Below, one piece after another: positions 1,684-53,827 of a stretch of 64,000 nt of DNA (positions are counted from its first letter, which is position 1; every line of letters begins with the position of its first letter). The DNA is taken from positions 496,001 through 560,000 of the forward strand of contig JASXSU010000002.1 in NCBI GenBank assembly GCA_030674875.1. Reading direction: 5' to 3'. The notes beneath the pieces were generated by a model. It searched no databases, was not told where the DNA came from, and saw only the letters and a program-made list of their open reading frames with translations. This DNA comes from Candidatus Endonucleibacter sp. (ex Gigantidas childressi) (GTDB taxonomy: Bacteria; Pseudomonadota; Gammaproteobacteria; Pseudomonadales; Endozoicomonadaceae). The position numbers and the translations under genes were made by a program.

Positions 1684-1822
1684 GAGACCTTTGCACGAGC
1701 CGTAATTTTGTTAGTCGGTGAGGAAAACACGCACTAAAATAGATGATTTATGCTTGTAAATGATCGATTTAGTACGTTTTTAAAGAAGCCAGCTGGCAAA
1801 AGAACAATCGTGCAAAGGTCTC
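1684..1822. mobile_element. 139-bp IS5-like MITE with 5-bp target duplication
   Basis: It has perfect 15-bp terminal inverted repeats, gagacctttgcacga at the left and tcgtgcaaaggtctc at the right, and a perfect 5-bp direct repeat aaata at 1679-1683 and 1823-1827. The interior has no coding capacity but holds a large imperfect hairpin (about 1731-1780). The ends resemble IS5-family ends, so this is probably a non-autonomous derivative. Its right part recurs at about 6031-6125 because the breakpoint of the large tandem duplication lies inside this element, just left of the hairpin. Confidence 0.8.
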
Positions 1823-1900
1823 AAATAGTACTATTACACAGAATCATGTACAAATTAAAAATTATATTGGCTGTTAAATTGATTTTAAATAACCATAAAT

Positions 1901-1924
1901 AAAGGCACCTTAAAAGGTGCCTTT
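1901..1924. terminator. Hairpin terminator 3' of the 2099-4831 gene
   Basis: An 11-bp perfect stem aaaggcacctt/aaggtgccttt has a 2-nt loop and is flanked by A- and T-rich sequence, so it could stop transcription from both sides. It lies about 175 bp past the stop of the minus-strand coiled-coil gene. The same hairpin is in the duplicate at 6203. Confidence 0.65.
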
Positions 1925-2098
1925 AATTATGCCAGATTCCATTGAAGATGTGAGATTAACTTCTCTTGCTCACCTACATCACCATACTACTCGTACACTA
2001 ATGCGGCTACGCTCATTTGTCTCATACTCATACCTACAATGATAACTGGTATTTCCGCTTACTTATTAACTCCTATAGCTTATTACTTTTGATATATA

Positions 2099-4831
2099 TT
2101 ATAACAGACCTCTGTACTGTTCTGCCGTATCTGCCTTAAGTAAACTCTCGCTATCAGCAACTGGCGGCGTCAAGTCTTCTTGCAAGTGCAGACAAAGATT
2201 GCCCTTCTCGTTTAGAGCAGTATTTATACTTACTAGCCTTTTATCTAGATTATTCATTTGCTCATCTAATACGATGATATTATTATAAGCACAGTCAAGG
2301 ATATCCTCTGCTCCCTTTAACGTCATTTTACACGTTACAACAGCATTCTCCACAGCAGCCTCCATAATACTATAATTCGTCATTAAGTCATTACGTTCAC
2401 CATAGTAGTGCTGCATCTTTTCAGCATCCTCTAAAACAACTTCAGATAAATAATCATATTTTTCTTTTAGCTCTTCTAGCTCTTCTTGGTGCTTAGCAGG
2501 CATCTCGCGCTGTTCTTTCTGTGCTTTATTAAGTGCTAACTTGTACGATGATGTATTAGAATCATTAAGTTCTGCAAGAATAAGCTCTTTTTCGGTTGAT
2601 AGCTTTCCAAATTTTACATGAATACTTTCTCTTTCTTCTAGTAGTTTCAACAGATCAGCTTTCAATTCAGAGATTTTACGTTCGGTATCACTTATGTCTA
2701 TACCGCTATCATGCTCATGATAAAACGCCTTAGTTGTTTCAAACTTAGCAGCCTCAGGTGTCAACTTATCTATTTTCTGTGTATTTGCTGATTTGTTTTG
2801 AGCGTCAATTCCTTTCTGTCTAAACATGTTACGTAGGTCTGTTACATTACTCCTACTTACAGCCGGAGCCTTTGAAGGAAGAGGTTTATCTAAGTTGTCT
2901 GACACAACTAAACGCTCCCTCTTATGAATGGTACTTCTAACATGAAGAGGAAGAATACGCTCCTTCCTATTAATTTCTGCTTCAGACCCATCTATACCAT
3001 GAACAGGAAGACTATTCTTCTCAATCATATTAACTTTTTCTGCAAAGCTATCTACATCTTCTGCCTGAAGCGTCTCTAATACTGGAGACACGGTAACCTT
3101 GGAAAAAATGCTTTCCGTCGGATCCAGATGAACACCTATGGGCATGTCGCTTAGCTGAGAGACACTCTCAGCTACGATATTAACTTCATCTTCGCAAGCG
3201 AAAGTCTGTAAAGTGGGAACATTTTCAATAGTTTGAAGGATTTTATCATGCGTGGAAGTGATATCATCCGAAGAAACTATGGGCATGTCGCTTAGCTGAG
3301 AGAAACTCTCAGCTTCGATATTAACTTCATCTTCGCAAGCGAAAGTCTGTAAAGTGGGAACATTTTCAATAGTTTGAAGGATTTTATCATGCGTGGAAGT
3401 GATATCATCCGAAGAAACTATGGGCATGTCGCTTAGCTGAGAGAAACTCTCAGCTTCGATATTAACTTCATCTTCGCAAGCGAAAGTCTGTAAAGTGGGA
3501 ACATTTTCAATAGTTTGAAGGATCTTCTCATGCGTGGAAGTGATATCATCCGAAGAAACTATGGGCATGGCGTCTAGCGGAGAGGCAGCCTCAGCTACGA
3601 TATTAACTTCATCTTCGCAAGCGAAAGTCTGTAAAGTGGGAACATTTTCAATAGTTTGAAGGATCTTCTCATGCCAGGAAGTGATATCATCCGAAGAAAC
3701 TATGGGCATGGCGTCTAGCGAAGAGGCAGCCTCAGCTTCGAGAATATCATTTTCGGGAACGATAGCCTGAAAAGTGGCCGCATTTTGACTCATTTGCTTG
3801 CTATCAGGTATTAGCTCTTTTGTCGAATTAGAATTACGACGTCCTTGAATAGCCATCACCTCCAACAAACGATCTGATGTACCCTGAACTGATGTTGGTG
3901 ATTTCGATGAAATAGAGCCATCTTTTGTTTTTTCAACTTTCAGACTCTTCTTATTTAATTCTAAATTAAGCAAAAATGAGTCTGCATCCTTAGTTGTTTT
4001 TGTCATACAGACTTCCTTAGCTTCAATAGGATCTGCCTTTAACTTTATTGTCAATTCAACAGGATTTTTCTTTAATTTTGTTACTACTTGTTTCTGAGCA
4101 TTACTCGCATTAGTGTTAGCTTTCTGACCATGTTTTCCTTCGAATACTTCTTTCATGGCTATCCTAAACTCTTCATTGGTGCACTTGACTTTTTGGTCGT
4201 AGTATTTCTCTTCACGCCTCTTGTATAATTTTTCCATATTACTTTCTGAAACTTCATTTTTCAGCATCTCAATATCCGTAGCCGCATTCTTATAAGCAGC
4301 TAACAGAGGTCCAATATTTCTATTATAACGATCATTTTCTTTTTCAGTAAGCTCACTAGTTATTTTCCTCTGTAAAGCTACATCGTGATAACGCATTTCT
4401 TTAAAATCCTTCATTTCTTGAGATCCACTTACGAGTTTGGATAACTTAGTGTGATATTCACCACTTGTTCTACTACTAAATGAACCATGCTTTAAATCAA
4501 TCTCATGCATTATACGTTTATGCAAATCATTTTCAGCACTAATAAGACCAGTTTTTGGAGTACTTTTTAATGAAGTGCTAGCTACATCCATTGACGCACT
4601 GCAATAACGAGAATAAATAGCGGCCATTGCAGAAAGAGCCATCATTCCACTACCAACATATGGATTAAGTCTAGCGACTACAGTTCCCGCCGCAACAACG
4701 CCAACAGCACACCATTTAAAGCGAGTACTGAAACTCTCACTAGTTTTATCTGTGTTATTAGTAACTTTCCCATTATTCATCAAATTATTTAGGAAAGGGC
4801 TTCCAATCTTATTAATAATATTATTTAACAT
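2099..4831 (-). CDS. Large coiled-coil protein with membrane hairpin and 47-residue repeats (copy A)
   Basis: I do not recognise a family. The 910 residues start at ATG 4831, preceded by a ribosome site (gagga) with good spacing. Order: hydrophilic N-terminus; two hydrophobic stretches at about 38-77 separated by RLNP, a likely membrane hairpin; a charged helical region at about 105-330; four tandem 47-residue repeats at about 375-563, each with MPIVSSDDIT, ILQTIENVPTLQTFA and CEDEVNI; a long coiled coil at about 715-880. No classical signal peptide is present. A bilobed hydrophobic segment plus coiled coils recalls membrane-inserting effectors of intracellular bacteria, but this is inference. 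HDSGIDIS precedes the coiled coil. It is duplicated at 6449-8674, which has one repeat instead of four and a shorter C-terminus. Confidence 0.75.
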   Translation of the reverse strand: MLNNIINKIGSPFLNNLMNNGKVTNNTDKTSESFSTRFKWCAVGVVAAGTVVARLNPYVGSGMMALSAMAAIYSRYCSASMDVASTSLKSTPKTGLISAENDLHKRIMHEIDLKHGSFSSRTSGEYHTKLSKLVSGSQEMKDFKEMRYHDVALQRKITSELTEKENDRYNRNIGPLLAAYKNAATDIEMLKNEVSESNMEKLYKRREEKYYDQKVKCTNEEFRIAMKEVFEGKHGQKANTNASNAQKQVVTKLKKNPVELTIKLKADPIEAKEVCMTKTTKDADSFLLNLELNKKSLKVEKTKDGSISSKSPTSVQGTSDRLLEVMAIQGRRNSNSTKELIPDSKQMSQNAATFQAIVPENDILEAEAASSLDAMPIVSSDDITSWHEKILQTIENVPTLQTFACEDEVNIVAEAASPLDAMPIVSSDDITSTHEKILQTIENVPTLQTFACEDEVNIEAESFSQLSDMPIVSSDDITSTHDKILQTIENVPTLQTFACEDEVNIEAESFSQLSDMPIVSSDDITSTHDKILQTIENVPTLQTFACEDEVNIVAESVSQLSDMPIGVHLDPTESIFSKVTVSPVLETLQAEDVDSFAEKVNMIEKNSLPVHGIDGSEAEINRKERILPLHVRSTIHKRERLVVSDNLDKPLPSKAPAVSRSNVTDLRNMFRQKGIDAQNKSANTQKIDKLTPEAAKFETTKAFYHEHDSGIDISDTERKISELKADLLKLLEERESIHVKFGKLSTEKELILAELNDSNTSSYKLALNKAQKEQREMPAKHQEELEELKEKYDYLSEVVLEDAEKMQHYYGERNDLMTNYSIMEAAVENAVVTCKMTLKGAEDILDCAYNNIIVLDEQMNNLDKRLVSINTALNEKGNLCLHLQEDLTPPVADSESLLKADTAEQYRGLL
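3146..3709 (-). repeat. Four tandem 141-bp coding repeats
   Basis: The gggcatg landmark recurs at a constant 141-bp step (about 3140, 3281, 3422, 3563, 3704), giving four near-identical 47-codon units inside the coiled-coil gene. The two middle units are almost base-identical, showing recent expansion. The paralogue at 6449-8674 has a single unit at the matching place. Being a multiple of three, gain or loss of units keeps the frame. Confidence 0.95.
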
Positions 4832-5156
4832 AATCCATATCCTCAGGTTTATTTTTAATTGTGCTAAGAACTTACAATAATTTCTTATACGTTATATTAC
4901 ATAAGATCTTATTATTCATTATTAGTTCATCAACAGTAACAATCTATAACCAAATTGTTATTTCCTCTAACAAAAAACTGCTTTTATTGTCACACTCAAT
5001 ATGACATCTTATTTTTTAAGCATTAAATAATTGTCTCGTATTTAATTAGACATAATTTCAAACAATAGTTCAACAAGCTGTTCTGGTAACTAACGCATTT
5101 GTTAAATTATCTAACTAGATATACTTACTAATGGTGGTAATAGTAACTGCCTATAC

Positions 5157-5274
5157 TCACTCCCCTTGAAGGTGGCGGGGACTACTCTCACTCACCCCAA
5201 CCATCTATACTCATAGGCTCAATGGGTCCTCGCTCGATTGTCGCCCAACCACACATTCAAGGGCAACGGGTATA
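5157..5274. repeat. Degenerate short interspersed element (type B)
   Basis: The sequence from about actcactccccttgaagg to gggcaacgggtata has the layout of the short repeats scattered through the window: a tata-ccc like end, a core with atctatactcataggctc, and a closing ggtata. It directly abuts the better conserved 124-bp element at 5275, which seems to have inserted at its terminal TA. The pair is duplicated at 9002-9243. Confidence 0.5.
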
Positions 5275-5398
5275 TACCCGTTGCCTTTCAAGTTGCTACT
5301 TTGTTGGCTGCGTTCGCTCACCCCGATCACCTACTAATCGTAGGCTCACGGGGCTTCGCTTACTTGCTGCCTAGTAGAAATTTAAAATGCTTTGGGTA
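5275..5398. mobile_element. 124-bp TA-targeting MITE-like element (copy 1)
   Basis: It begins tacccgttgcctttcaa and ends atgctttgggta, forming imperfect inverted repeats of about 25 bp, with TA at both flanks. An open frame runs through (IPVAFQVATLLAAFAHPDH and onward). The short frame over 5238-5426 is only this element read through and is not a gene. Duplicated as copy 2 at 9120. Confidence 0.8.
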
Positions 5399-5480
5399 TA
5401 GTACCATTTCAATAAAGTGCAAATAGCTATATACTGAGTCTCTTCGCAGATCACAGCATTCCTAGCACTGCCAATCGTTT

Positions 5481-6062
5481 ATGAGACAAAAGAATATCGC
5501 ACACTCTCTGGCCTCCATGGTTCTCTTAGCCATATCAGCTCTGATAATTGGCTGTTCAAACCAAATTAAACCCAATGCTGATATTCTGCAATGGCGCAAA
5601 CAAACAGACTCAATACCTGAATCAGCAGATACACATCATACCAAAGTAGCCGTAAGCGCCTTTATAGAAGAGGTAGCACAGACAATTAAAGCATCATCAT
5701 TATTACTAGATACAGATCTATCCAAAGCAAAATCTATGCTTGAGCCAATAAACTTTGACAATTTAACTGATGAACTCAAAGAAGCGCTGGCTATACAACA
5801 AGCGCTCATTGCTGACAAGTCTGGACAAAGTGAGGAAGTATTTGAATGGCTAGACCGGCAAGTGATTTTTAATAGTCACAATACAGAAATCATTGCTCTT
5901 GCTCACACCCTACGAGCCAAAGCCTACAGCTACTTTACAGAATATCAGGCAGCTATGGATGAATGGCTTGGAGCCATTGTTTTGCTAACAAAGGAACAAC
6001 AGGCCTCTTATCAAAACGAATTTTGGAAAACACGCACTAAAATAGATGATTTATGCTTGTAA
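5481..6062 (+). pseudogene. lpoA: Truncated lpoA copy left by the tandem duplication
   Basis: The first 183 residues match intact LpoA (9326-11221) with only a few differences, including the lipoprotein signal and lipobox IIGC. After ...NEFWKT the frame runs ten residues into duplicated MITE sequence and stops. The substrate-binding-like C-terminal domain is missing, so it cannot do the full LpoA job of activating penicillin-binding protein PBP1a. A secreted lipoprotein of 193 residues could still be made; whether it is expressed is unknown. Confidence 0.9.
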
Positions 6063-6202
6063 ATGATCGATTTAGTACGTTTTAAATAAACCAGCTGGCA
6101 AAAGAACAATCGTGCAAAGGTCTCAAATAGTACTATTACACCGAATCATGTACAAATTAAAAATTATATTGGCTGTTAAATTGATTTTAAATAACCATAA
6201 AT

Positions 6203-6226
6203 AAAGGCACCTTAAAAGGTGCCTTT
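6203..6226. terminator. Hairpin terminator 3' of the 6449-8674 gene
   Basis: Same 11-bp stem and short loop as at 1901, followed by tatttatg on the plus strand. It lies about 220 bp past the stop of the second coiled-coil gene. Confidence 0.65.
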
Positions 6227-6448
6227 ATTTATGCCAGATTCCATTGAAGATGTGAGATTAACTTCTCTTGCTCACCTACATCACCATACTACTCGTACAC
6301 TAATGCGGCTACGCTCATTTGTCTCATACTCATACCTACAATGATAACTGGTATTTCCGCTTACTTATTAACTCCTATAGCTTATTACTTTTGATATATA
6401 TTATAACAGACCACTGTACTGTTCTGCCGTATATGCCTTAAGTAAACT

Positions 6449-8674
6449 CTAGCTATCAACAACTGACGTCAAGTCTTCTTGCAAGTGCAGACAAAGATTG
6501 CCCTTCTCGTCTAGAGCAGTATTTATACTTACTAGCCTTTTATCTAGATTATTCATTTGCTCATCTAATCCGATGATATCATTATAAGCATCGTCAAGGA
6601 TATCCTCTGCTCCCTTTAACGTCATTTTACACGTTACAACAGCACTCTCCACAGCAGCATCCATAATACTATAAGTCGTCATTAAGTCATTACGTTCATC
6701 ATGGTAGTCCTGCATCTTTTCAGCATCCTCTAAAACAACTTCAGATAAATCATCATATCTTTCTTTTAGCTCTTCTAGCTCTTCTTGGTGCTTAGTAAGC
6801 ATCTCGTGCTGTTCTTTCTGTGCTTTACTAAGTGCTAACTTGAACGATGATGTATTAGAATCATCAAGTTCTGCAATAATAAGCTCTTTTTCGGTTGATA
6901 GATTTCCAACTTTTACATGAATACTTTCTCTTTCTTCTAGTAGTTTCAACAGATCAGCTTTCAATTCAGAGATTTTACGTTCGGTATCACTCATGTCTAT
7001 ACCGCTATCATGCTCATGATAAAACGCCTTAGTTGTTTCAAACTTAGCAGCCTCAGGTGTCAACTTATCTATTTTCTGTGTATTTTCTGATTTGTTTTGA
7101 GCGTCAATTCCTTTCTGTCCAAACATGCCACGTAGGTTTGTTACATTACTCCTACTTACAGCCGGAGCCTTTGAAGGAAGATGATTATCTAAGTTGTCTG
7201 ACACAACTAAACGCTCCCTCTTATGAATGGTACTTCTAACATGAAGAGGAAGAATACGCTCCTTCCTATTAATTTCTGCTTCAGACCCATCTATACCATG
7301 AACAGGAAGACTATTCTTCTCAATCATATTAACTTTTTCTGCAAAGCTATCTACAGCTTCTGCCTGAAGCATCTCTAATACTGGAGACACGGTAACCTTG
7401 GAAAAAATGCTTTCCGTCGGATCCAGATGAACACCTATGGGCATGTCGCTTAGCTGAGAGACACTCTCAGCTACGATATTAACTTCATCTTCGCAAGCGA
7501 AAGTCTGTAAAGTGGGAACATTTTCAATAGTTTGAAGGATCTTCTCATGCCAGGAAGTGATATCATCCGAAGAAACTATGGGCATGGCGTCTAGCGAAGA
7601 GGCAGCCTCAGCTTCGAGAATATCATTTTCGGGAACGATAGCCTGAAAAGTGGCCGCATTTTGACTCATTTGCTTGCTATCAGGTATTAGCTCTTTTGTC
7701 GAATTAGAATTACGACGTCCTTGAATAGCCATCACCTCCAACAAACGATCTGATGTACCCTGAACTGATGTTGGTGATTTCGATGAAATAGAGCCATCTT
7801 TTGTTTTTTCAACTTTCAGACTCTTCTTATTTAATTCTAAATTAAGCAACAATGAGTCTGCATCCTTAGGATCTGCCTCTAACTTTCTTGTCAATTCAAC
7901 AGGATTTTTCTTTAATTTTGTTACTACTTGTTTCTGATCATTACTCGCATTAGTGTTAGCTTTCTGACCATGTTTCCCTTCGAATACTTCTTCCATGGCT
8001 ATCATAAACTCTCCATAGGTGCTCTTGGCTTTTTGGTCGTAGTATTTCTCTGCACGCCTCTTTTGTAATTTTTCCATATTACTTTCTGAAGCTCCATTTT
8101 TTTTCAGCATCTCCATCTCCGTAGACTCATTCTTATAAGCAGCTAACAGAGGTTCCATATTTCTATTATAACGATCATTTTCTTTTTCAATAAGATCACT
8201 AGTTATTTTCTTCTGTAAAGCTACATCGTTATGACGCATTTTTTCAAGATCCTTCATTTCTTGAGATCCAATTACGAGGCTTAATAACTTAGTGTGATAT
8301 TCATCACTTGTTCTACAACAAAATGAACCATGCTTTAAATCAATCTCATGCATTATACGTTTATGCAAATCATTTTCAACACAAATAAGACCAGTTTTTG
8401 GAGTACTTTTTAATGAAGTGCTAGCTACATCCATTGACGGACTGCAATAACGAGAATAAATAGCGGCCATTGCAGAAAGAGCCATCATTGCACCACCAGC
8501 ATATGGATTAAGTCTAGCGACTACAGATCCCGCCGCAACAACGCCAACAGCACACCATTTAAAGCGAGTACTGAAACTATCACTAGTTTTATCTGTGTTA
8601 TTAGTAACTTCCCCATTATTCATCAACTTATTTAGGAAAGGGCTTCCAATCTTATTAACAATATTATGTAACAT
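6449..8674 (-). CDS. Large coiled-coil protein with membrane hairpin (copy B)
   Basis: This 741-residue paralogue of the 2099-4831 product has the same layout: hydrophobic hairpin at about 38-77, charged helical part, one 47-residue repeat (MPIVSSDDITSWHEK), HDSGIDMS, then a coiled coil to near the C-terminus. The start at 8674 has a strong ribosome site, aaggag, 7 nt upstream. Relative to copy A it has three fewer repeats, a 12-residue deletion near residue 265, and an earlier stop that removes about 17 residues. Changes are mostly replacements in the coil (for example K to N, E to D), suggesting both copies are or were translated. Function unknown; an envelope or host-interaction role is inference. 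Confidence 0.75.
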   Translation of the reverse strand: MLHNIVNKIGSPFLNKLMNNGEVTNNTDKTSDSFSTRFKWCAVGVVAAGSVVARLNPYAGGAMMALSAMAAIYSRYCSPSMDVASTSLKSTPKTGLICVENDLHKRIMHEIDLKHGSFCCRTSDEYHTKLLSLVIGSQEMKDLEKMRHNDVALQKKITSDLIEKENDRYNRNMEPLLAAYKNESTEMEMLKKNGASESNMEKLQKRRAEKYYDQKAKSTYGEFMIAMEEVFEGKHGQKANTNASNDQKQVVTKLKKNPVELTRKLEADPKDADSLLLNLELNKKSLKVEKTKDGSISSKSPTSVQGTSDRLLEVMAIQGRRNSNSTKELIPDSKQMSQNAATFQAIVPENDILEAEAASSLDAMPIVSSDDITSWHEKILQTIENVPTLQTFACEDEVNIVAESVSQLSDMPIGVHLDPTESIFSKVTVSPVLEMLQAEAVDSFAEKVNMIEKNSLPVHGIDGSEAEINRKERILPLHVRSTIHKRERLVVSDNLDNHLPSKAPAVSRSNVTNLRGMFGQKGIDAQNKSENTQKIDKLTPEAAKFETTKAFYHEHDSGIDMSDTERKISELKADLLKLLEERESIHVKVGNLSTEKELIIAELDDSNTSSFKLALSKAQKEQHEMLTKHQEELEELKERYDDLSEVVLEDAEKMQDYHDERNDLMTTYSIMDAAVESAVVTCKMTLKGAEDILDDAYNDIIGLDEQMNNLDKRLVSINTALDEKGNLCLHLQEDLTSVVDS

Positions 8675-9001
8675 AATTCATCTCCTTAGGTTTATTTTTA
8701 ATTGTGCTAAGAACTTACAATAATTTCTTATCCGTTATATACATAAGATCTTATTATTCATTATTAGTTCAATCAACAGTAACAATCTATAACCAAATTG
8801 TTATTTCCTCTAACAAAAAACTGCTTTTATTGTCACACTCAATATGACATCTTATTTTTTTTAAGCATTAAATAATTGTCTCGTATTTAATTAGACATAA
8901 TTTCAAACAATAGTTCAACAAGCTGTTCTGGTAACTAACGCATTTGTTAAATTATCTAACTAGATATACTTACTAATGGTGGTAATAGTAACTGCCTATA
9001 C

Positions 9002-9119
9002 TCACTCCCCTTGAAGGTGGCGGGGACTACTCTCACTCACCCCAACCATCTATACTCATAGGCTCAATGGGTCCTCGCTCGATTGTCGCCCAACCACACA
9101 TTCAAGGGCAACGGGTATA
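9002..9119. repeat. Degenerate short interspersed element (type B), duplicate
   Basis: Near-identical copy of 5157-5274, carried along by the segmental duplication. It again abuts the 124-bp element on its right. Confidence 0.5.
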
Positions 9120-9243
9120 TACCCGTTGCCTTTCAAGTTGCTACTTTGTTGGCTGCGTTCGCTCACCCCGATCACCTACTAATCGTAGGCTCACGGGGCT
9201 TCGCTTACTTGCTGCCTAGTAGAAATTTAAAATGCTTTGGGTA
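9120..9243. mobile_element. 124-bp TA-targeting MITE-like element (copy 2)
   Basis: Same sequence and TA flanks as copy 1 at 5275. It ends 83 bp before the lpoA start, so lpoA must be transcribed from its right edge, from the short gap, or from further upstream. Confidence 0.8.
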
Positions 9244-9251
9244 TAGTACCA

Positions 9252-9280
9252 TTTCAATAAAGTGAAAATAGCTATATACT
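9252..9280 (+). promoter_or_regulatory. Possible sigma70 promoter for lpoA
   Basis: TTTCAA, 17 bp, then TATACT lies between the MITE and lpoA, giving a leader of roughly 40 nt. The -10 box is good and the -35 box weak (3 of 6). The same boxes precede the truncated lpoA copy (about 5409-5437). Confidence 0.4.
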
Positions 9281-9325
9281 GAGTTTCTTCGCAGATCACA
9301 GCATTCCGAGCACTGGCAATCGTTT

Positions 9326-11221
9326 ATGAGACAAAATAATATCGCACACTCTCTGGCCTCCATGGTTCTCTTAGCCATATCAGCTCTGATAATTGGCTGT
9401 TCAAACCAAATTAAACCCAATGCTGATATTCTGCAATTGCGCAAACAAACAGACTCAATACCTGAATCAGCAGATACACATCATACCAAAGTAGCCGTAA
9501 GCGCCTTTATAGAAGAGGTAGCACAGACAATTAAAGCATCATCATTATTACTAGATACAGATCTATCCAAAGCAAAATCTATGCTTGAGCCAATAAACTT
9601 TGACAATTTAACTGATGAACTCAAAGAAGCGCTGGCTATACAACAAGCGCTCATTGCTGACAAGTCTGGACAAAGTGAGGAAGTATTTGAATGGCTAGAC
9701 CGGCAAGTGATTTTTAATAGTCACAATACAGAAATCATTGCTCTTGCTCACACCCTACGAGCCAAAGCCTACAGCTACTTTACAGAATATCAGGCAGCTA
9801 TGGATGAATGGCTTGGAGCCATTGTTTTGCTAACAAAGGAACAACAGGCCCCTTATCAAAACGAATTTTGGAAAACTATGCTCCATATTCCCGAGTCACG
9901 CCTACACACTCTAATAAATCAAATACCTGAAAAAAACATTAAGGCTTGGCTGCAACTGGCAATCCTATATCAGCCAGAGCAATATCTTGAACAACAGCTT
10001 GCAGATTTTAAAAACTGGCAGCAAAAGTGGCCTGATCATCCTGGCAATGCATACCTACCCAGTGATTTTATAACCCTAGAATCTAGAAGCATAAAACCAA
10101 ATAAAATTGCAATACTACTCCCACTTTCCGGGAGCCTTACAAAAGCCGGGCGCTCGGTCAGGGATGGTATTATCGCTGCACGCTATGAAGACTTGAAAAA
10201 ACAAGTGGAAACCCCAGAGCTATTGATTTTTGATACCAACGGCAGGGATGTCCGTCAACTAGCAGAACAAGCCATTCAGCAAGGAGCACAGCTAATTATT
10301 GGACCTCTTGCCAAAAATGACGTAAGTCTCATTCAAACTCATATTGCAACACAAGTACCAGTGTTAGCTCTTAACTATACTGACAACAAAAGTATCGACC
10401 CATATTCTCAGATATATCAATTTGGGCTTTCCACTGAAGATGAAGCCCGCATGATTGCAAATCGAGCCATGCTTGATGGCCATAAGCGTGCGATCATGCT
10501 CACCCCTAATACCCCATGGGGGAAAAAAACCAACCACTCTTTTTCTCAAGCATGGAAAGAGATAGGTGGGACAATGGCAGCTCATAGCGAATTCGACAAT
10601 ACAACACAATTTAGCAAACTCTGCGGCCAGTTGCTTCATATTAACCAAAGCCATCAAAGAAAAAAGAAACTAGAGCGCCTATTCAAAGAACGCGTAAACT
10701 TTCACCCAAGAAGGCGCCAAGATGTTGATATGATATTCATTGCCGCTTCACCGGCTGAAGCACGACAAATCAAACCATCACTTTCTTACCAGTTTGCTGA
10801 TGATATCCCAGTCTATGCTACTTCAAGTGTGTTTTCCGGAAGAAAAGACCCCACTAAAGATCGAGATATTGACGGCATAAGAATACCAATTATGCCTTGG
10901 TTCATACCCAGTGAGGTGTCTGACATTAAGAGTGCCATAACTGACGCTTGGCCACATTCACAAGGAGAGTATGGTACACTGTACGCTTTAGGATCAGACG
11001 CCTACAAACTTCACCCCAAGCTTGAGCAGCTATTCCATCTTCAAGGAAGTCGCATTAGAGGACTAACAGGCTGGCTAAGCATCACTCAGGGCCGCAAAAT
11101 TATCAGACAATTAACATGGCAGATATTTAATAACGGTCGCCTCCGTCCACATCCGGTTAAATTGTACGAGAAAAATCAAGCTCATGCCTTGGACATTAAG
11201 AAAAATCAATCACCAGGGTGA
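9326..11221 (+). CDS. lpoA: LpoA/LppC, outer-membrane lipoprotein activator of PBP1a
   Basis: LpoA spans the periplasm from the outer membrane and stimulates the peptidoglycan synthase PBP1a. The 631 residues fit the family (E. coli about 680). The signal peptide ends in a lipobox, IIGC, with Cys at about 25. Residues 30-250 are a helical TPR-like domain. From about 255 (KIAILLPLSGSLTKAGRSV) a periplasmic-binding-protein fold follows, including LIIGPLAK and ALNYTDN. The gene leads the lpoA-yraN-diaA-dolP order known from enterics and overlaps yraN by 38 bp. A truncated copy lies at 5481-6062. Confidence 0.92.
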   Translation: MRQNNIAHSLASMVLLAISALIIGCSNQIKPNADILQLRKQTDSIPESADTHHTKVAVSAFIEEVAQTIKASSLLLDTDLSKAKSMLEPINFDNLTDELKEALAIQQALIADKSGQSEEVFEWLDRQVIFNSHNTEIIALAHTLRAKAYSYFTEYQAAMDEWLGAIVLLTKEQQAPYQNEFWKTMLHIPESRLHTLINQIPEKNIKAWLQLAILYQPEQYLEQQLADFKNWQQKWPDHPGNAYLPSDFITLESRSIKPNKIAILLPLSGSLTKAGRSVRDGIIAARYEDLKKQVETPELLIFDTNGRDVRQLAEQAIQQGAQLIIGPLAKNDVSLIQTHIATQVPVLALNYTDNKSIDPYSQIYQFGLSTEDEARMIANRAMLDGHKRAIMLTPNTPWGKKTNHSFSQAWKEIGGTMAAHSEFDNTTQFSKLCGQLLHINQSHQRKKKLERLFKERVNFHPRRRQDVDMIFIAASPAEARQIKPSLSYQFADDIPVYATSSVFSGRKDPTKDRDIDGIRIPIMPWFIPSEVSDIKSAITDAWPHSQGEYGTLYALGSDAYKLHPKLEQLFHLQGSRIRGLTGWLSITQGRKIIRQLTWQIFNNGRLRPHPVKLYEKNQAHALDIKKNQSPG

Positions 11222-12784: not shown

Positions 12785-12802
12785 CTAAGCAGAGGATTAG
12801 CC

Positions 12803-12834
12803 TAACAACGTAGCAACTTGAAAGGCGACGGGTA
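12803..12834. mobile_element. 32-bp end fragment of the 124-bp MITE-like element
   Basis: Only the taacaacgtag...gacgggta end is left. It joins the IS30 transposase remnant at 12835 through a TA, so the element had inserted in that gene and both were cut by a later deletion reaching to 19 bp past dolP. The transposase frame runs into it (GKG then SIPVAFQVATLLG). Confidence 0.7.
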
Positions 12835-15360: not shown

Positions 15361-16302
15361 ATGTAAAGGACTGCCGAAAGGTATGCGAATGAAAAGAATG
15401 GAGGTGAAGCAGACTACAAAGCAAGTCGTTTTTTAGAATCTTTTGGTGATTGTGACCATTTTGCAGATCTAAAAAAATGGTTTGATCATTTTTTGCACAG
15501 CTGTTTTTGAGCACCCGTCTAAGCCTATCCAAGCCTAATCGAAACAGACTCTTGGCTGGACGGTAATACTTGTTCCGCGGCAATTGATTTGCATTCCCAT
15601 AACACCAGCGCCTACTAGCATGCGGAAAATTCTTGATCCTCAAGACCCTGCGGATTTCAAAAAACCGTATATACCCAAAGGATTTCAAGTTGATACTAGG
15701 CGGCAAGTAAGCGAACTCTCATGAGCCTACGAGTAGTAGGTGATCTGGGTAACGTAGCAAATTGAAAGGCGACGGGTATAGAACGAACTAACGATGAGGT
15801 AAACATAAAGCAATGGTACCTTTATGCTAACAACCTTTCCCTAAATAAAAGCGCATGCACAGAGCAGGTGAATGTACTCGACTGTATTGAAACAGACAAG
15901 AAAGGTAAAAGGCATACTTGGTGCTGGGTCACTGATCTTAAGTTAGACGAAACGACAGTAGAAGCCATAATGAAAGGAGGCCGTTGCCGATGGCACATTG
16001 AAAATCAAACGTTTAATACCCTGAAAAATCAAGGCTACAACCTAGAACACAATTACGGCCACGATGAGAAGAATTTAACCACCAATTTTGCCTATCTCAC
16101 AGTCCTCTCTTTTTTCTCGTGGACCAAATACAAGAACTCTGCGACCCCCAATTCCAGAAGACTCTGAAAGGTCGTTCGAAAGGAACTCGCATCGCTCTAT
16201 GGAAGTGGATACAAAATTATTTTCTGAGCTGGCTCATAAAAACTTGGGAAGGCTATTTTATACGATTATTAACGGAGCAGGAGAAGCCAAAATAATTCCT
16301 TT
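15361..16302 (+). pseudogene. Broken DDE transposase interrupted by a MITE
   Basis: The right part is clear: from 15781 a frame reads ERTNDEVNIKQWYLYANN, then RCRWHIENQTFNTLKNQGYN and LTTNFAYLTVL, typical of the end of an IS4-like DDE transposase domain. Near 16110, at a run of six T, the frame shifts and continues to 16302 as DQIQELCDPQFQKTLKGRS and onward. The left part (15361-15671) is degraded (a readable bit is SFGDCDHFADLKKWFDHF). The 107-bp element at 15672-15778 splits the gene. The exact IS family is not settled. Confidence 0.6.
15672..15778. mobile_element. TA-targeting MITE-like element (copy 3, shortened)
   Basis: Reverse orientation: tacccaaaggatttcaag at the left and gaaaggcgacgggta at the right, TA on both sides. 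It is 107 bp instead of 124 because the middle lost a piece (gtgagcgaacgcagcc is missing). It interrupts the transposase at 15361-16302. Confidence 0.75.
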
Positions 16303-18740: not shown

Positions 18741-19460
18741 TCTGGCTTTTTGCTTCGATGTTCCACCACATTGTTGCTTTTAACCAGAGTTCTGCATGAC
18801 AGCTTGTTTTGACGTAACCAGTCTAACCATTCGTGGCCTATAAACTCACGATCTGTCAGAAGATTATCAATTCTTTTTATGGGAATGAGATTTAGTACAC
18901 GCTCCATTACCGCTATGCGTTCATCGGTATTGGAGCTTCCTCTTTTTTTTGTCAAGACACTCCCAAACAATGGGAATTGAGGCTCCTTGCCAAGCAATTG
19001 ATACCACCAGATAGTTGACGTTTTTAGAGCCATGCTTCCAGTTGGTTCTATCCATGCACAGGATAAAGCGATCCATTTCTAGGCAGCTCAGAATCAGCTC
19101 ACCTAGCTGCTCAAAACTGTAGTCATAGTCAGCGAAAAATCGCTTTATACCCAAAGCATTTCCAATTGCTAAGTAAGCAAAGCCCCGTGAGCCTACGAGT
19201 AGTAGGTGCTCTGGGTGAGCGAACGCAGCCAACAACGTAGCAATTTGAAAGGCGACGGGTATATACGGCGATAACCGGACTCGCTGCCTGCCTTCGTCTG
19301 AAACTCTTCGGCTACATAGTACAAGTTAGTGGAACGGCCACGCAGTAAGGCCATTACAAACTGTGGAATGAAGGTGATCCTAGCTTGATGCAGGGGTAGA
19401 TGAGCTTTAAGCTTCCTTGGCCAATGAACAGACGTCTTTCATGTTCAACAACCATAACCT
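18741..19460 (-). pseudogene. IS4-family transposase remnant split by a MITE
   Basis: Read from 19460 down: LPLHQARITFIPQFVMALL, FQTKAGSESGYRRI, then the MITE (19148-19261), then KRFFADYDYSFEQLGELIL, MDRTNWKHGSKNVN, a frameshift near 18950, then RIAVMERVLNLIPIKRI and LLTDREFIGHEWLDWL. D-R-T-N-W and T-D-R-E-F are the first and second DDE regions of IS4. The C-terminal part with the catalytic glutamate is missing. Confidence 0.85.
19148..19261. mobile_element. TA-targeting MITE-like element (copy 4)
   Basis: Reverse orientation, tacccaaagcatttcca to ggcgacgggta, 114 bp with about 10 bp lost in the tactaggcagca part. It sits in the IS4 transposase remnant. Its open frame joins the downstream part (GFAYLAIGNALGIKRFF) but not the upstream part. 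Confidence 0.8.
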
Positions 19461-24111: not shown

Positions 24112-25336
24112 CGCGGATTCAAATTCCAAGTGCATCGCAGCTTAAGCTGCTAACGCAGCCCTGTGTTCACCCATTATCAGAGCGGGTGTTTTGAAATTCA
24201 AATCTTTTCTTGGCCGAGAATTAAGCCGCATCAATGCTCGCTTCACCTCTATCGGACCGACCTTCTTGAAGTCTGTATTTTTTGGAAAACATTGTCGTAG
24301 CAATCCATTGGTGTTCTCATTTAACCCTCGCTCCCAAGAGCTGTGGGGGTGCACAAAGTAAACCTCCGCCGATAATGCTTGGCTGATTTTCTCATGGTAC
24401 GAAAACTCTTTCCCGTTGTCAGCAGTAATGGTGTGAACAATAACCTTAAATGGGTTGAGCAAGCTTATCATAGCTTTGGTAACATCTGCTGCGCTTTTGC
24501 TTTTTACCTGGGCTGATACCGTGTGCTTCGTGACCAGCTCGATTATAGTTACCAAAGCCCCGCTATACCCTTTGCCAATGACGGTATCAATCTCCCAGTC
24601 CGACACGCGATTTATCGTCAACTATCTCTGGGCTATCATATATGCTGACGCGGTTATTTATCTGGCCGCACGTTGACTTGCCGTTTCGTCGCTTGTCATA
24701 CTTCTTGCCCTAGGCCGACGAAGATGCATGTAAAGATCGCCGCCAGCCTGCTTATTCGCCCAAATATGTAGGTAGATGCTTTCATAGCTTACACCCAAAG
24801 CATTTCAAATTGCTACTAGGCAGCAAGTAAGCGAAGCCCCGTGAGCCTACGAATAGTAGGTGATCGGGGTGAGCGAACGCAGCCAACAACGTAGCAATTT
24901 GAAAGGCGACGGGTATAATCAGTCGTTCCTGATCATTCAGCAACCAACTTGGAATCTGCTCTGGACTCCACGCTACACACAGCTTTGATTCAAGCACCGT
25001 AATCATTTTTGGCGTCATTCTACTTGCCTGAGCCGACTCTGCACGCAGGCTATCTGTTCGGCCTTGTGATTGCCTATACCTATATCCACGCTCTCCAGTA
25101 TTCCTTGCCAACTCACGGCTCACCGTGGACTGGCTGGTGCCAATAATCTCCGATATCTCCCTTTGGCTGCAACCGCTTTTCTTTCATGCGGAAATATGGC
25201 ATCGTTGTTCGTAAGCCAGTTATTGGTAAGTTATCGTCATCACTTCATCTCTTGCCGGAGAAAAGGGTAGGAGCTTGCCTTCAGCTAGCCCTTTCTTCTA
25301 CCTAGTAAAGTGATGCACTTCAGATTTGAATCCGCC
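24112..25336 (-). pseudogene. IS30 element (type 2), transposase broken by MITE and frameshifts
   Basis: Ends: gcggattcaaattccaagtg at 24112 and its inverted partner cacttcagatttgaatccgc at about 25336. The transposase reads on the minus strand from about 25240 (YEQRC-type start, then a shift near 25170), VSRELARNTGERGYRYRQSQ, MTPKMITVLESKL, the MITE at 24790, ESIYLHIWANKQAGGDLYM, further shifts near 24660, then the catalytic part VSDWEIDTVIGKGYSGALV, TADNGKEFSYHE and HSSWERGLNENTNGLLRQ to 24142. All DDE residues can be seen but not in one frame. Confidence 0.88.
24790..24915. mobile_element. TA-targeting MITE-like element (copy 5)
   Basis: Reverse orientation, from ttacacccaaagcat to gaaaggcgacgggta. 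The IS30 type 2 fragment at 30050 gives the empty site (catagctaatccgtcg-type), so the insertion is visible base by base: 127 bp added, one more than 126, from an extra base in the left end. Confidence 0.85.
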
Positions 25337-29435: not shown

Positions 29436-29554
29436 TACACCATTGAAGCTGGGGTAGCCGATAAACGAGCGAAGCCCCATGAGCCTATGAGTAGTAGATG
29501 ATTGTGGTGAGTGAGAACAGTCAATAATCGCACATCAATGGTGATGGGGTATAT
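29436..29554. repeat. Short interspersed element (type B)
   Basis: Ends tacaccattgaagctgggg and caatggtgatggggtata are inverted repeats; the core gcgaagccccatgagcctat is shared with the 124-bp elements. It lies just after metQ. The divergence of the ends from the tacccgtcgcctttcaa type suggests an older subfamily. Confidence 0.55.
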
Positions 29555-30036: not shown

Positions 30037-30484
30037 CAAATATGTAGGTAGATGCTTTCATAGCTAATCCGTCGTTCCTGATCATTCAGCAACCAACTGA
30101 AATCTGCTCTGGGCTTCACTCTACACGCAGCTTTGATTCAATCACCTCGATCATTTTTGGCGTCATTCTTCTCGCCCGAGCCGACTCTGTACGCCGCCTA
30201 TCTGTTCGGCCTTGTGCTTCCCTATGCCTACATCCACGTTCGCCAGTATTCCTTGCCAACTCACGGCTCACCGTGGACTGGCTGGTGTCAATGATCTCCG
30301 CTATCTCCCTTTGGCTGCAACCGCTTTTCTTTAATGCGAAAATCTGGCATCGTTGTTCATAAGCCAGTTGTTGGTAAGTTATCGTCATCACTTCATCTCT
30401 TGCCGGAGAAAAGGGTAGAAGCTTACCTTCAGCTGGCCCTTTCTTCTACCTAGTCAAGTGATGCACTTCAGATTTGAATCCGCC
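30037..30484 (-). pseudogene. IS30 transposase (type 2), N-terminal fragment with IS end
   Basis: From 30391 it reads MTITYQQLAYEQRCQIFALK, the helix-turn-helix SQREIAEIIDTSQSTVSREL, and MTPKMIEVIESKLRVE, then a frameshift, and stops at tatgtaggtagatgctttcat. The terminal repeat gcggattcaaatctgaagtg lies at 30462-30484. It cuts the paralogue at 29830-30036 and preserves the empty site for MITE copy 5. Confidence 0.85.
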
Positions 30485-35600: not shown

Positions 35601-36321
35601 GAGGCCTCAGCATAACTCAACAAAGACGATTATATTCTGGTAAAATATTGGCATGCAAAAACCCTTTATAACACAGCCCAAGCTCTTCGTTTCAGCCAGC
35701 GACCTAAATCATCCAATTCTTCGTAGTCTGGATGATACGGAAGCGCTGTTGGAATGGTCAGAGATTGAGAAGTCACTATCCTCAATATACGCCTCTAACA
35801 CCGGTCGCCCCAGTTATCCTCTGTTGACCTTATTTCGAGCCTTATTGCTTGGAACATGGTATCGTTTATCCGATGTACAATTGGCTCAGTGCTGGTATAG
35901 AGATCTTCTGTTCCGTAAATTTTGTCACCTTGAACTTGGTGGAGCAGTTCCCGAAGCCTCTACTTTGAGACGCTTTCGAACACGACTTGTCGAACACCGT
36001 CTGTGAGATCAATTATTGGCAGAGATTAATCGTCAACGGGCTTGCCAGAACTCGGTTCATGGGCCTTGCCAAAAATGCGACAATTTATGGGCTGGCCGCT
36101 ATTGCTGCGAACATTCGTAAAGATACTAAGTTTTTGGTACTCTCTGGTGTGTCAAAACCATGTTGTACCGGATAGGTACGTTAAAAATCAGTCCGAAGCA
36201 CTAAAATCAGTGTGTAAAACAAATGATTTGATGTTCAGCGCCTTAGAAAGCTTCGTAATGGCTGACAAAACTTGGAAAGTTCAATTACCGTGACCAAAGT
36301 CGTTGGTTATACTGAGGTCTC
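35601..36321 (+). pseudogene. IS5-like element with internal deletion
   Basis: Left end gaggcctcagcataactc, right end ggttatactgaggtctc. The transposase starts at 35653 (MQKPFITQPKLFVSASDLNH) and reads well to LVEHRL, where a stop occurs at 36004. After NRQ the sequence jumps to the end of the gene (ACQNSVHGPCQ in the wrong frame; true frame GLARTRFMGLAKNATIYG). Compared with 52454-53827 about 490 bp, including the catalytic core, are deleted. It preserves the empty site for MITE copy 6. Confidence 0.88.
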
Positions 36322-52453: not shown

Positions 52454-53827
52454 GAGACCTCAGCATAACTCAACAAAGACGATTATATTCTGGTAAAATA
52501 TTGGCATGCAAAAATCCTTCATAACACAGCCCAAACTCTTTGTTTCAGCCAGCGACCTAAATCATCCAATTCTTCGTAGTCTGAATGATACGGAAGCGCT
52601 GCTGGAGTGGTCAGAGATTGAGAAGTTACTATCCTCAATCTAAGCCTCTAACACCGGTCGCCCCAGTTATCCTCTGTTGACCTTGTTTCGAGCCTTATTG
52701 CTTGGAACATGGTATCGCTTATCCGATGTACAGTTGGCTCAGTGCTTGTATATACCCGTCGCCTTTCAAGTTGCTACGTTGTTGGCTGCGTTCGCTCACC
52801 CCGATCACCTACTACTCGTAGGCTCACGGGGCTTCGCTTACTTGCTGCCTAGTAGCAATTTGAAATGCTTTGGGTATAGAGATCTTCTGTTTTGTAAATT
52901 TTGTCACCTTGAACTTGGTGGAGCAGTTCCCGAAGCCTCCACCTTGGGACGATTTCGAACACGACTTGTCGAACACCGTCTGTGGGATCAATTATTGGCA
53001 GAGATTAATCGTCAACCTGAAGCCAAAAACATCATAATGAGCGAAGGTCGCATTAATATCATTGATGCTACACCGATAGAGGCAGCGCGATCAGGTTCGG
53101 GTCGCGATAAAAGCGGAAAACCGACAAAAGATCCTGAAGCTGGTTGGCACGTTAAGAATGACAATCGTGGTAACAAAAAAAGCACCTATGGTTTTTCCCT
53201 TCATACCGGTGTCGATGAAGATGGCTTTATTCATAGGCAAAGCATAACGCCTGGCAATGTTCATGATTCTCGGGAGCGTGATACCCTGCTACTGGGGGAT
53301 GAAACGGCACTGTATGCGGATTCCGCTTACAGCTCTGGGCAGACCCCGAGAGAAATTAGCGCAGCTAGGTATTAAAGATCAAGTTCAACGTAAGGGCTAC
53401 AGAGGAAAGCCTCTATCGAAAGAAGATAAAACTCGTAACAAAGAAATAGCCGTAACACGGGCGGGTGGTGAGCGTCCTTTTGCCACCTATAAAAGACACT
53501 ACGGGCTTGCCAGAACTCGGTTCATGGGCCTTGCCAAAAATGCGACGATTTATGGGCTGGCCGCTATTACTGCGAACATTCGTAAAGGTACTAAGTTGTT
53601 GGTGCTCTATGGTGTGTCAAAACCATGTTATACAGGATAGGTACGTCAAAAATCAGTCCGCAGCACTAAAATCAGTGTATAAAACAAATAATTTGATGTT
53701 CAACGCCTTAGAAAGCTACGTAATGGCTGACAAAACTTGGAAAGTTCAATTACCGTGACCAAAGTCGTTGGTTATACTGAGGTCTCATCAGAATATAATC
53801 GCCTTTGTTGAGTTATGCTGAGGTCTC
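52454..53827 (+). pseudogene. IS5-like element inserted in the polysaccharide operon
   Basis: Left end gagacctcagcataactc, flanked by atat on both sides as possible target duplication. The transposase begins at 52506 but has a stop at SSI/ASN (about 52642), the 124-bp MITE at 52753 (kept in frame), and a frameshift near 53340, so it is inactive; the DDE core INIIDATPIEAARSGSGRD and the end GGERPFATYKRHYG are readable. Two right ends follow each other: ggttatactgaggtctc (53787) and then an inverted copy of the left end, gttgagttatgctgaggtctc (53827). Confidence 0.88.
52753..52876. mobile_element. 124-bp TA-targeting MITE-like element (copy 6)
   Basis: tacccgtcgcctttcaagt to atttgaaatgctttgggta with a TA on each side. 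Against the empty site in the other IS5 copy (about 35893) exactly 126 bp were added: 124 plus a duplicated TA. The host frame stays open through it and continues correctly after it (LAQC-LY, 42 new residues, RDLLF). Confidence 0.92.

Follow-up and report, generated by a model that had tools for sequence, protein, structure and literature searches.

By its sequence, the 124-bp element that recurs in the 64,000-nucleotide stretch of Candidatus Endonucleibacter DNA analysed here (the window) is an ERIC (RU-1/IRU) miniature transposon. ERIC is a long-known miniature transposon, and its present abundance was very probably reached by a limited number of primary insertions, after which insertion sequences (IS) would have amplified it as a passenger, the in-frame character of some copies being a by-product. 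The gain of 126 bp that keeps a host frame would follow from the length of the element in this lineage and from the usual codon position of TA dinucleotides; it may have let some fusions stay open, while appearing neither necessary for amplification nor detectably selected. Residence inside other transposons would offer a non-autonomous element a second route to abundance, and the case is also a warning that frame-keeping in a few copies can arise from element length and TA position.

Copies in the window

The initial annotation listed six copies and one fragment, and all of these were found (Table 1), although two of the six are internally deleted and a further weak piece can be added. The two empty sites that it gave, one in IS5-like and one in IS30-like DNA, are both real. 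The reading frame across the copy at 52753 extends for 243 codons, and the frame at host site B stops 7 bases past the element.

Table 1. Copies of ERIC and related features in the 64-kb window
Feature	Position	Strand	Remarks
ERIC copy, full length, 124 bp	52753..52876	+	in frame in IS5-like transposase gene, host site A; BLAST query
ERIC copy	24792..24915	-	in IS30-like transposase gene, host site B
ERIC copy	5275..5398	+	adjoins older ERIC-like element; 96% identity
ERIC copy	9120..9243	+	duplicate of the copy at 5275 within duplicated stretch; 96% identity
ERIC copy, internal deletion, 107 bp	15672..15778	-	
ERIC copy, internal deletion, 114 bp	19148..19261	-	in IS4-like transposase gene, closed frame, host site D
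ERIC end fragment	12799..12834	-	beside IS30-like gene; flank sequence assigns it to host site C as one half
Weak ERIC piece, 44 bases	29468-29511		absent from the initial annotation
IS5-like copy with empty target site at ~35898	35820..35979	+	empty counterpart of site A
IS30-like fragment with empty target site at ~30065	30037..30143	-	empty counterpart of host site B
Older ERIC-like element, 121 bp	5154..5274	+	adjoins copy at 5275; second copy at 8999-9119

A direct duplication occupies positions 1722-9876 of the window, where 4027-6031 pairs with 7867-9876 (96.7%) and 1722-3357 with 6025-7653 (95.7%), ERIC copies included. Given that the copies at 5275 and 9120 both lie within the first of these pairs, they probably represent a single insertion. 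The older, diverged ERIC-like element accounts for 11 BLAST rows of the sampled DNA, five being near full length. A second palindrome family was missed by a regular expression and found by BLAST. No Rfam family matched the window at its gathering score.

Structure and identity of the element

Sequence was sampled in 80 stretches round the best cores together with the window (587,980 of 3,679,278 bases), and since the sample was picked round the best-conserved cores, old, diverged copies are under-represented in it. BLAST gave 191 rows in this sample, and the 131 that span query positions 1-3 to 122-124 make up the full-length set. A 22-base core, with at most two mismatches, matched the genome 247 times and its reversed control not once, and the predicted RNA fold is a long hairpin (-54.5 kcal/mol, z-score -6.89), which together place the element far beyond chance.

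The element had been described from the window as a 124-bp MITE that adds 126 bp and carries one open frame, with inverted ends of about 25 bp and TA on both sides, and this description carried over to the larger sample. TA is present at both ends of 124 of the 131 full-length copies, 107 have a length of exactly 124 bp, and the core with its duplicated TA accounts for the 126 bp gained per insertion. One of the six frames of the consensus is open, encoding 42 residues; it is the frame named in the initial annotation and is intact in 108 of the 131. The inverted ends are imperfect, agreeing at 19 of 24 bases.

The features that mark ERIC were found here: homology over the whole element, a TA duplication with inverted ends, and a long hairpin. 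The 16 of 131 copies whose flanks are unique look intergenic, and many of the others lie within IS genes. The best match to a Klebsiella plasmid ERIC is 73.6% over 124 bases, the full element (E 8e-9), and ERIC matches occur in 53 records of Klebsiella and other enterobacterial plasmids; the best match in E. coli is 72.9% over 128 bases (E 1e-7), and under the limit applied 3300 of 5426 E. coli genomes have a match. To judge from the accessible parts of the literature, the likeness to enterobacterial ERIC runs from the sequence (∼73%), TA duplication and hairpin to the length class, the 42-codon frame and the gene fusions. With both TA, however, an ERIC copy of E. coli measures 127 bases against 128 here; its core of 123 rather than 124 would add 125 bp, not 126, and thus the frame is kept here. 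The host lineage differs as well.

In the accessible text of Delihas, the reverse complement of ERIC/RU-1 is given a 42-residue frame, such frames are described as fused in frame to genes, and no repeat element is placed within the conserved domains of superfamily proteins (Delihas 2007; PMC2759123); the 42-residue frame and in-frame ERIC fusions have thus been in print since 2007. Unlike the copies of that account, as far as its available part goes, most copies read here lie in IS DNA, inside transposase domains. The ISfinder name given for ERIC is MITEEc1 (PMC6267812). An effect of ERIC on mRNA stability has been reported for Yersinia.

The RUP of Streptococcus pneumoniae is presumably unrelated to ERIC in sequence. 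It is described, in the part of the source available, as a small TA element tied to IS630, and differs from the element here in having stops in all six frames (PMC2229807). The MITEPlu5 of Photorhabdus is reported to have hundreds of ERIC-like copies and termini like those of CCC-type IS630 (ISPlu3, ISPlu8, ISPlu19), and in the accessible text its authors term its frames pseudocoding (PMC6267812). Hundreds of copies and CCC-type IS630-like termini are shared with the element here; the typical MITEPlu5 length given there is 123 bp, and the host is another.

Amplification within insertion sequences

The 131 full-length copies reduce to few junction types. Groups of 15, 12, 8, 7, 7, 6, 6 and 5 copies have both junctions in common, in transposase genes, and each large group occupies one exact insertion site inside an IS5-, IS30-, IS4- or IS630-like gene. 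Repeated DNA flanks 102 copies on both sides and 13 on one, and 16 have unique flanks. Pfam domains in the hosts are DDE_Tnp_1 and DUF772 (IS5-like), DDE_3 (IS630-like), rve or HTH_38 (IS30-like) and DDE_Tnp_1 (IS4-like); Pfam had no match for the short host fragments at sites B and D, and the labels IS30 and IS4 are based on sequence motifs and on overlap with better-covered copies. In one rve-domain (IS30-like) transposase (L120, ERIC at 2464-2587), the frame ends in a 14-residue tail from the ERIC reverse strand. The two IS630 copies that match the whole 291-residue query without interruption (L143 and L128) both have an in-frame ERIC, a number (n = 2) too small to judge.

The divergence of ERIC inside a group is about that of its flanks, and certain ERIC bases are diagnostic of some groups. 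For the IS5-like host, a whole-genome search (62 rows; 40 of 69 candidates scored) found, among the matches listed, at least 20 places interrupted precisely at the site, the gap being filled, and at least nine that are unbroken, with further half sites on the left (at least seven) and right (at least four). In the sampled DNA, 25 of 41 left-half anchors of this host adjoin ERIC, two of the 41 being the same place. The left IS end is visible in 14 of the 15 sampled IS5-like copies, with flanks that differ except in one mutually similar pair; for the IS630 host it is present in six of seven ERIC-bearing copies, before six different flanks. Given that the same exact site is filled in many IS copies, and that those whose ends were examined stand at different chromosomal places, we infer that ERIC-bearing IS transposed.

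One observation counts against amplification of ERIC as a passenger of these IS. In a tree of the IS5-like host, built with unrelated sequence beyond broken IS ends masked, ERIC-bearing and empty copies are intermingled, and a single insertion without recombination would not give such mixing. There is reason to think that recombination has occurred: in at least eight copies the left flank belongs to one host site and the right flank to a different one, and five of these mixtures involve a single IS30 type. Homologous recombination between copies, following amplification, could have joined IS halves at ERIC in this way, and some of the chimeric junctions may come from assembly error; the assembly has only 12 contigs. 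It might then be supposed that gene conversion between dispersed ERIC and IS copies, and not IS transposition, spread the insertion, as both the chimeric junctions and the mixed tree would allow. Conversion alone, however, makes no new IS positions, and in the filled copies the left IS end is complete and the location varies, so that we regard this alternative as unlikely, although conversion and IS transposition may both be at work.

A variant in which the 42-residue in-frame insert leaves some IS transposases working, such that in-frame hosts copy themselves together with ERIC and IS transposition is the main route to hundreds of copies, seems to us quite unlikely. Four sites in which the frame is closed (D, E, F and H) are represented by groups of 7, 7, 6 and 6 copies; these were amplified too, and amplification thus does not require an open frame. 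It is very unlikely that ERIC prefers particular IS sites and hit the same ones repeatedly: its TA target and the reported presence of the pneumococcal RUP in IS elements (PMC2229807) would permit this, but the same TA is filled in 15 IS5-like copies, the ERIC variants track the host group with a divergence like that of the flanks, and one copied insertion is simpler.

ERIC was also seen in arrays. Five tandem copies with common TA ends lie at 2530-3146 of one sampled stretch (L071), and in another (L122, G000:C3:450000-467200) six ERIC cores stand ∼2.3-2.5 kb apart, several with the same junctions, in a repeated array carrying ERIC.

A candidate transposase

No autonomous partner had been seen in the window, a statement that now needs amending, as the IS630 of this genome and that of the relative G022 share termini with ERIC, albeit with a co-occurrence at about the chance level. 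The IS630 of this genome ends in TATACCCAAGTG. In G022, three IS630 copies are ∼99% identical over 1.1 kb, with ends TATACCCAAGTGAATTC and TATACCCGTGACCATTG; the right end of ERIC agrees with TATACCCAAGTGAATTC at 18 of 24 bases and its left end with TATACCCGTGACCATTG at 19 of 24. Terminal matches to ERIC amount to 15-19 of 24 for the IS630 of G000 and G022 against 3-8 of 24 for other IS630 of G004 and G007, the G007 ends being 1-2 bases out of register. Shared termini of this sort are the mark of a MITE of CCC-type IS630, and they suggest that a CCC-type IS630 transposase mobilised ERIC in trans. Among 37 genomes, ERIC occurs in 13, this IS630 in seven and both in three, about as expected by chance, and no DDE_3 match was found in G017 and G008, where ERIC is present; the partner is thus proposed from the ends alone. 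It may have been lost in some genomes. A terminal link between ERIC and IS630 has been in print for Photorhabdus since 2018, as the available part of that paper has it (PMC6267812), and the near-identical G022 copies make a test of the ERIC transposase feasible.

Reading frame and selection

In coding frames, the T of TA falls at codon position 3 in 51% of cases, at position 2 in 35% and at position 1 in 14%, and thus 25.5% of insertions are expected to use the open frame, which requires forward orientation and T at position 3. Among the 11 resolved transposase host sites, five are open (A, B, C, G and M), four forward and closed (D, H, F and J) and two reverse and closed (E and K). The initial annotation had looked to an excess of frame-keeping insertions for support, and the five of 11 open sites match the expectation from TA position (P = 0.12). 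Five of the nine forward insertions are open (P = 0.52), nine of the 11 sites are forward (P = 0.065), and the nine-site count before sites M and K were added gave four open (P = 0.18). Ten sites were read directly and J by hand. Next to site J one base is changed, and site K and its empty counterpart differ by a single base. Hand reading of sequences later contributed D, E, F, H, J, K and M, and the count leaves aside sites I, L and N and groups (12,11), (9,15) and (9,16), whose host frame is unsettled, together with one-sided or recombinant junctions.

Automatic scoring of the flanks without the element placed 16 of the 131 copies within genes, all 16 in the open frame and drawn from four host sites and two recombinants. 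Taken alone, these sites (four of four open, P = 0.004) count against the absence of selection. The hexamer-score gene calling used in this step misses several transposases, and it was supplemented by reading empty sites.

The fusions themselves are real. In-frame fusions were read directly at five transposase sites, one IS5-like, two IS30-like, one IS630-like and one IS4-like, and this much of the proposed in-frame insertion stands; its other part, a device for inserting into genes in the manner of the Rickettsia palindromic elements (RPE), finds no support. Of 57 frames that run across an element and reach 100 codons or more, 54 use the open frame and none the reverse strand.

A Ka/Ks test of the 42 residues had also been suggested, and no codon constraint peculiar to in-frame hosts was seen. 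Against the group consensus, nonsynonymous and synonymous changes (N/S) in the ERIC frame number 68/49 for open and 33/27 for closed hosts (P = 0.75); the frame is broken in five of 40 and five of 26, respectively (P = 0.50). These N/S values lie below the neutral expectation of ∼2.4 in open and closed hosts alike, shared mutations being counted more than once, and the low N/S is thus not frame-specific; hairpin constraint or conversion could be its cause. Measured against host flanks, shared mutations in the in-frame hosts have an N/S of 43/28 and single ones 279/104, and the lower value for shared mutations is a hint of function during spread. The hint is not confirmed by the tree of the IS5-like host, where N/S does not differ between internal (114/69) and terminal (333/166) branches, nonsense changes included (P = 0.24). 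Selection on the 42-residue frame went undetected by the group consensus, by the flank comparison and by this tree.

RPE are small and palindromic, with a frame that can fuse in frame with genes, and sit in many ordinary genes according to the accessible part of a review (PMC10969869), whereas the resolved in-frame cases here are in IS transposase genes. Neither in-frame insertion in many ordinary genes nor a frame kept by selection, the marks of that class, was found here. Selected in-frame insertion into proteins, with the 42-residue peptide kept as protein sequence, is therefore highly improbable: one open frame in six, the added 126 bp, the near-exclusive use of that frame in long spanning frames and the five directly read fusions speak for it, and against it stand the closed-frame groups of six to seven copies, the similar N/S and frame-breaking in open and closed hosts, the absence of unique-flank copies from genes (0 of 16), the E. 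coli length that would shift the frame, and copies in relatives whose usual length is 124 bp, with others of 120, 123, 128 and ∼140.

Ordinary genes and relatives

The initial annotation held that frame-keeping would be a coincidence if copies lay only in intergenic or dead IS DNA. In the sample this is largely the case: the resolved in-gene copies lie in multi-copy, mostly decayed IS, and scoring placed the 16 unique-flank copies of the 131 beside or between coding frames, with no sign of any within a gene. Three of these were read in detail and are all outside genes; the gene just before one of them is presumably a phosphoglycerate mutase, named from its sequence.

A literature search under Endozoicomonas with the name ERIC, and in broader terms, found no report of ERIC in this lineage, and thus a known kind of element, in hundreds of copies, is placed in a lineage without an earlier report found. 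A 2501-base piece of an Endozoicomonas contig is 100% identical to the relative G017, which belongs to the family of the window genome, presumably Endozoicomonadaceae. Within this family 13 of 37 genomes contain ERIC, in a patchy pattern, and the two other genomes of the window's genus lack it. Among 25 near-full-length copies in relatives, long frames seldom span the element; they do so at four loci (L015, L016, L017 and L032). Outside the family, an annotated hypothetical protein of E. coli runs into an ERIC element (L174, 750-1070).
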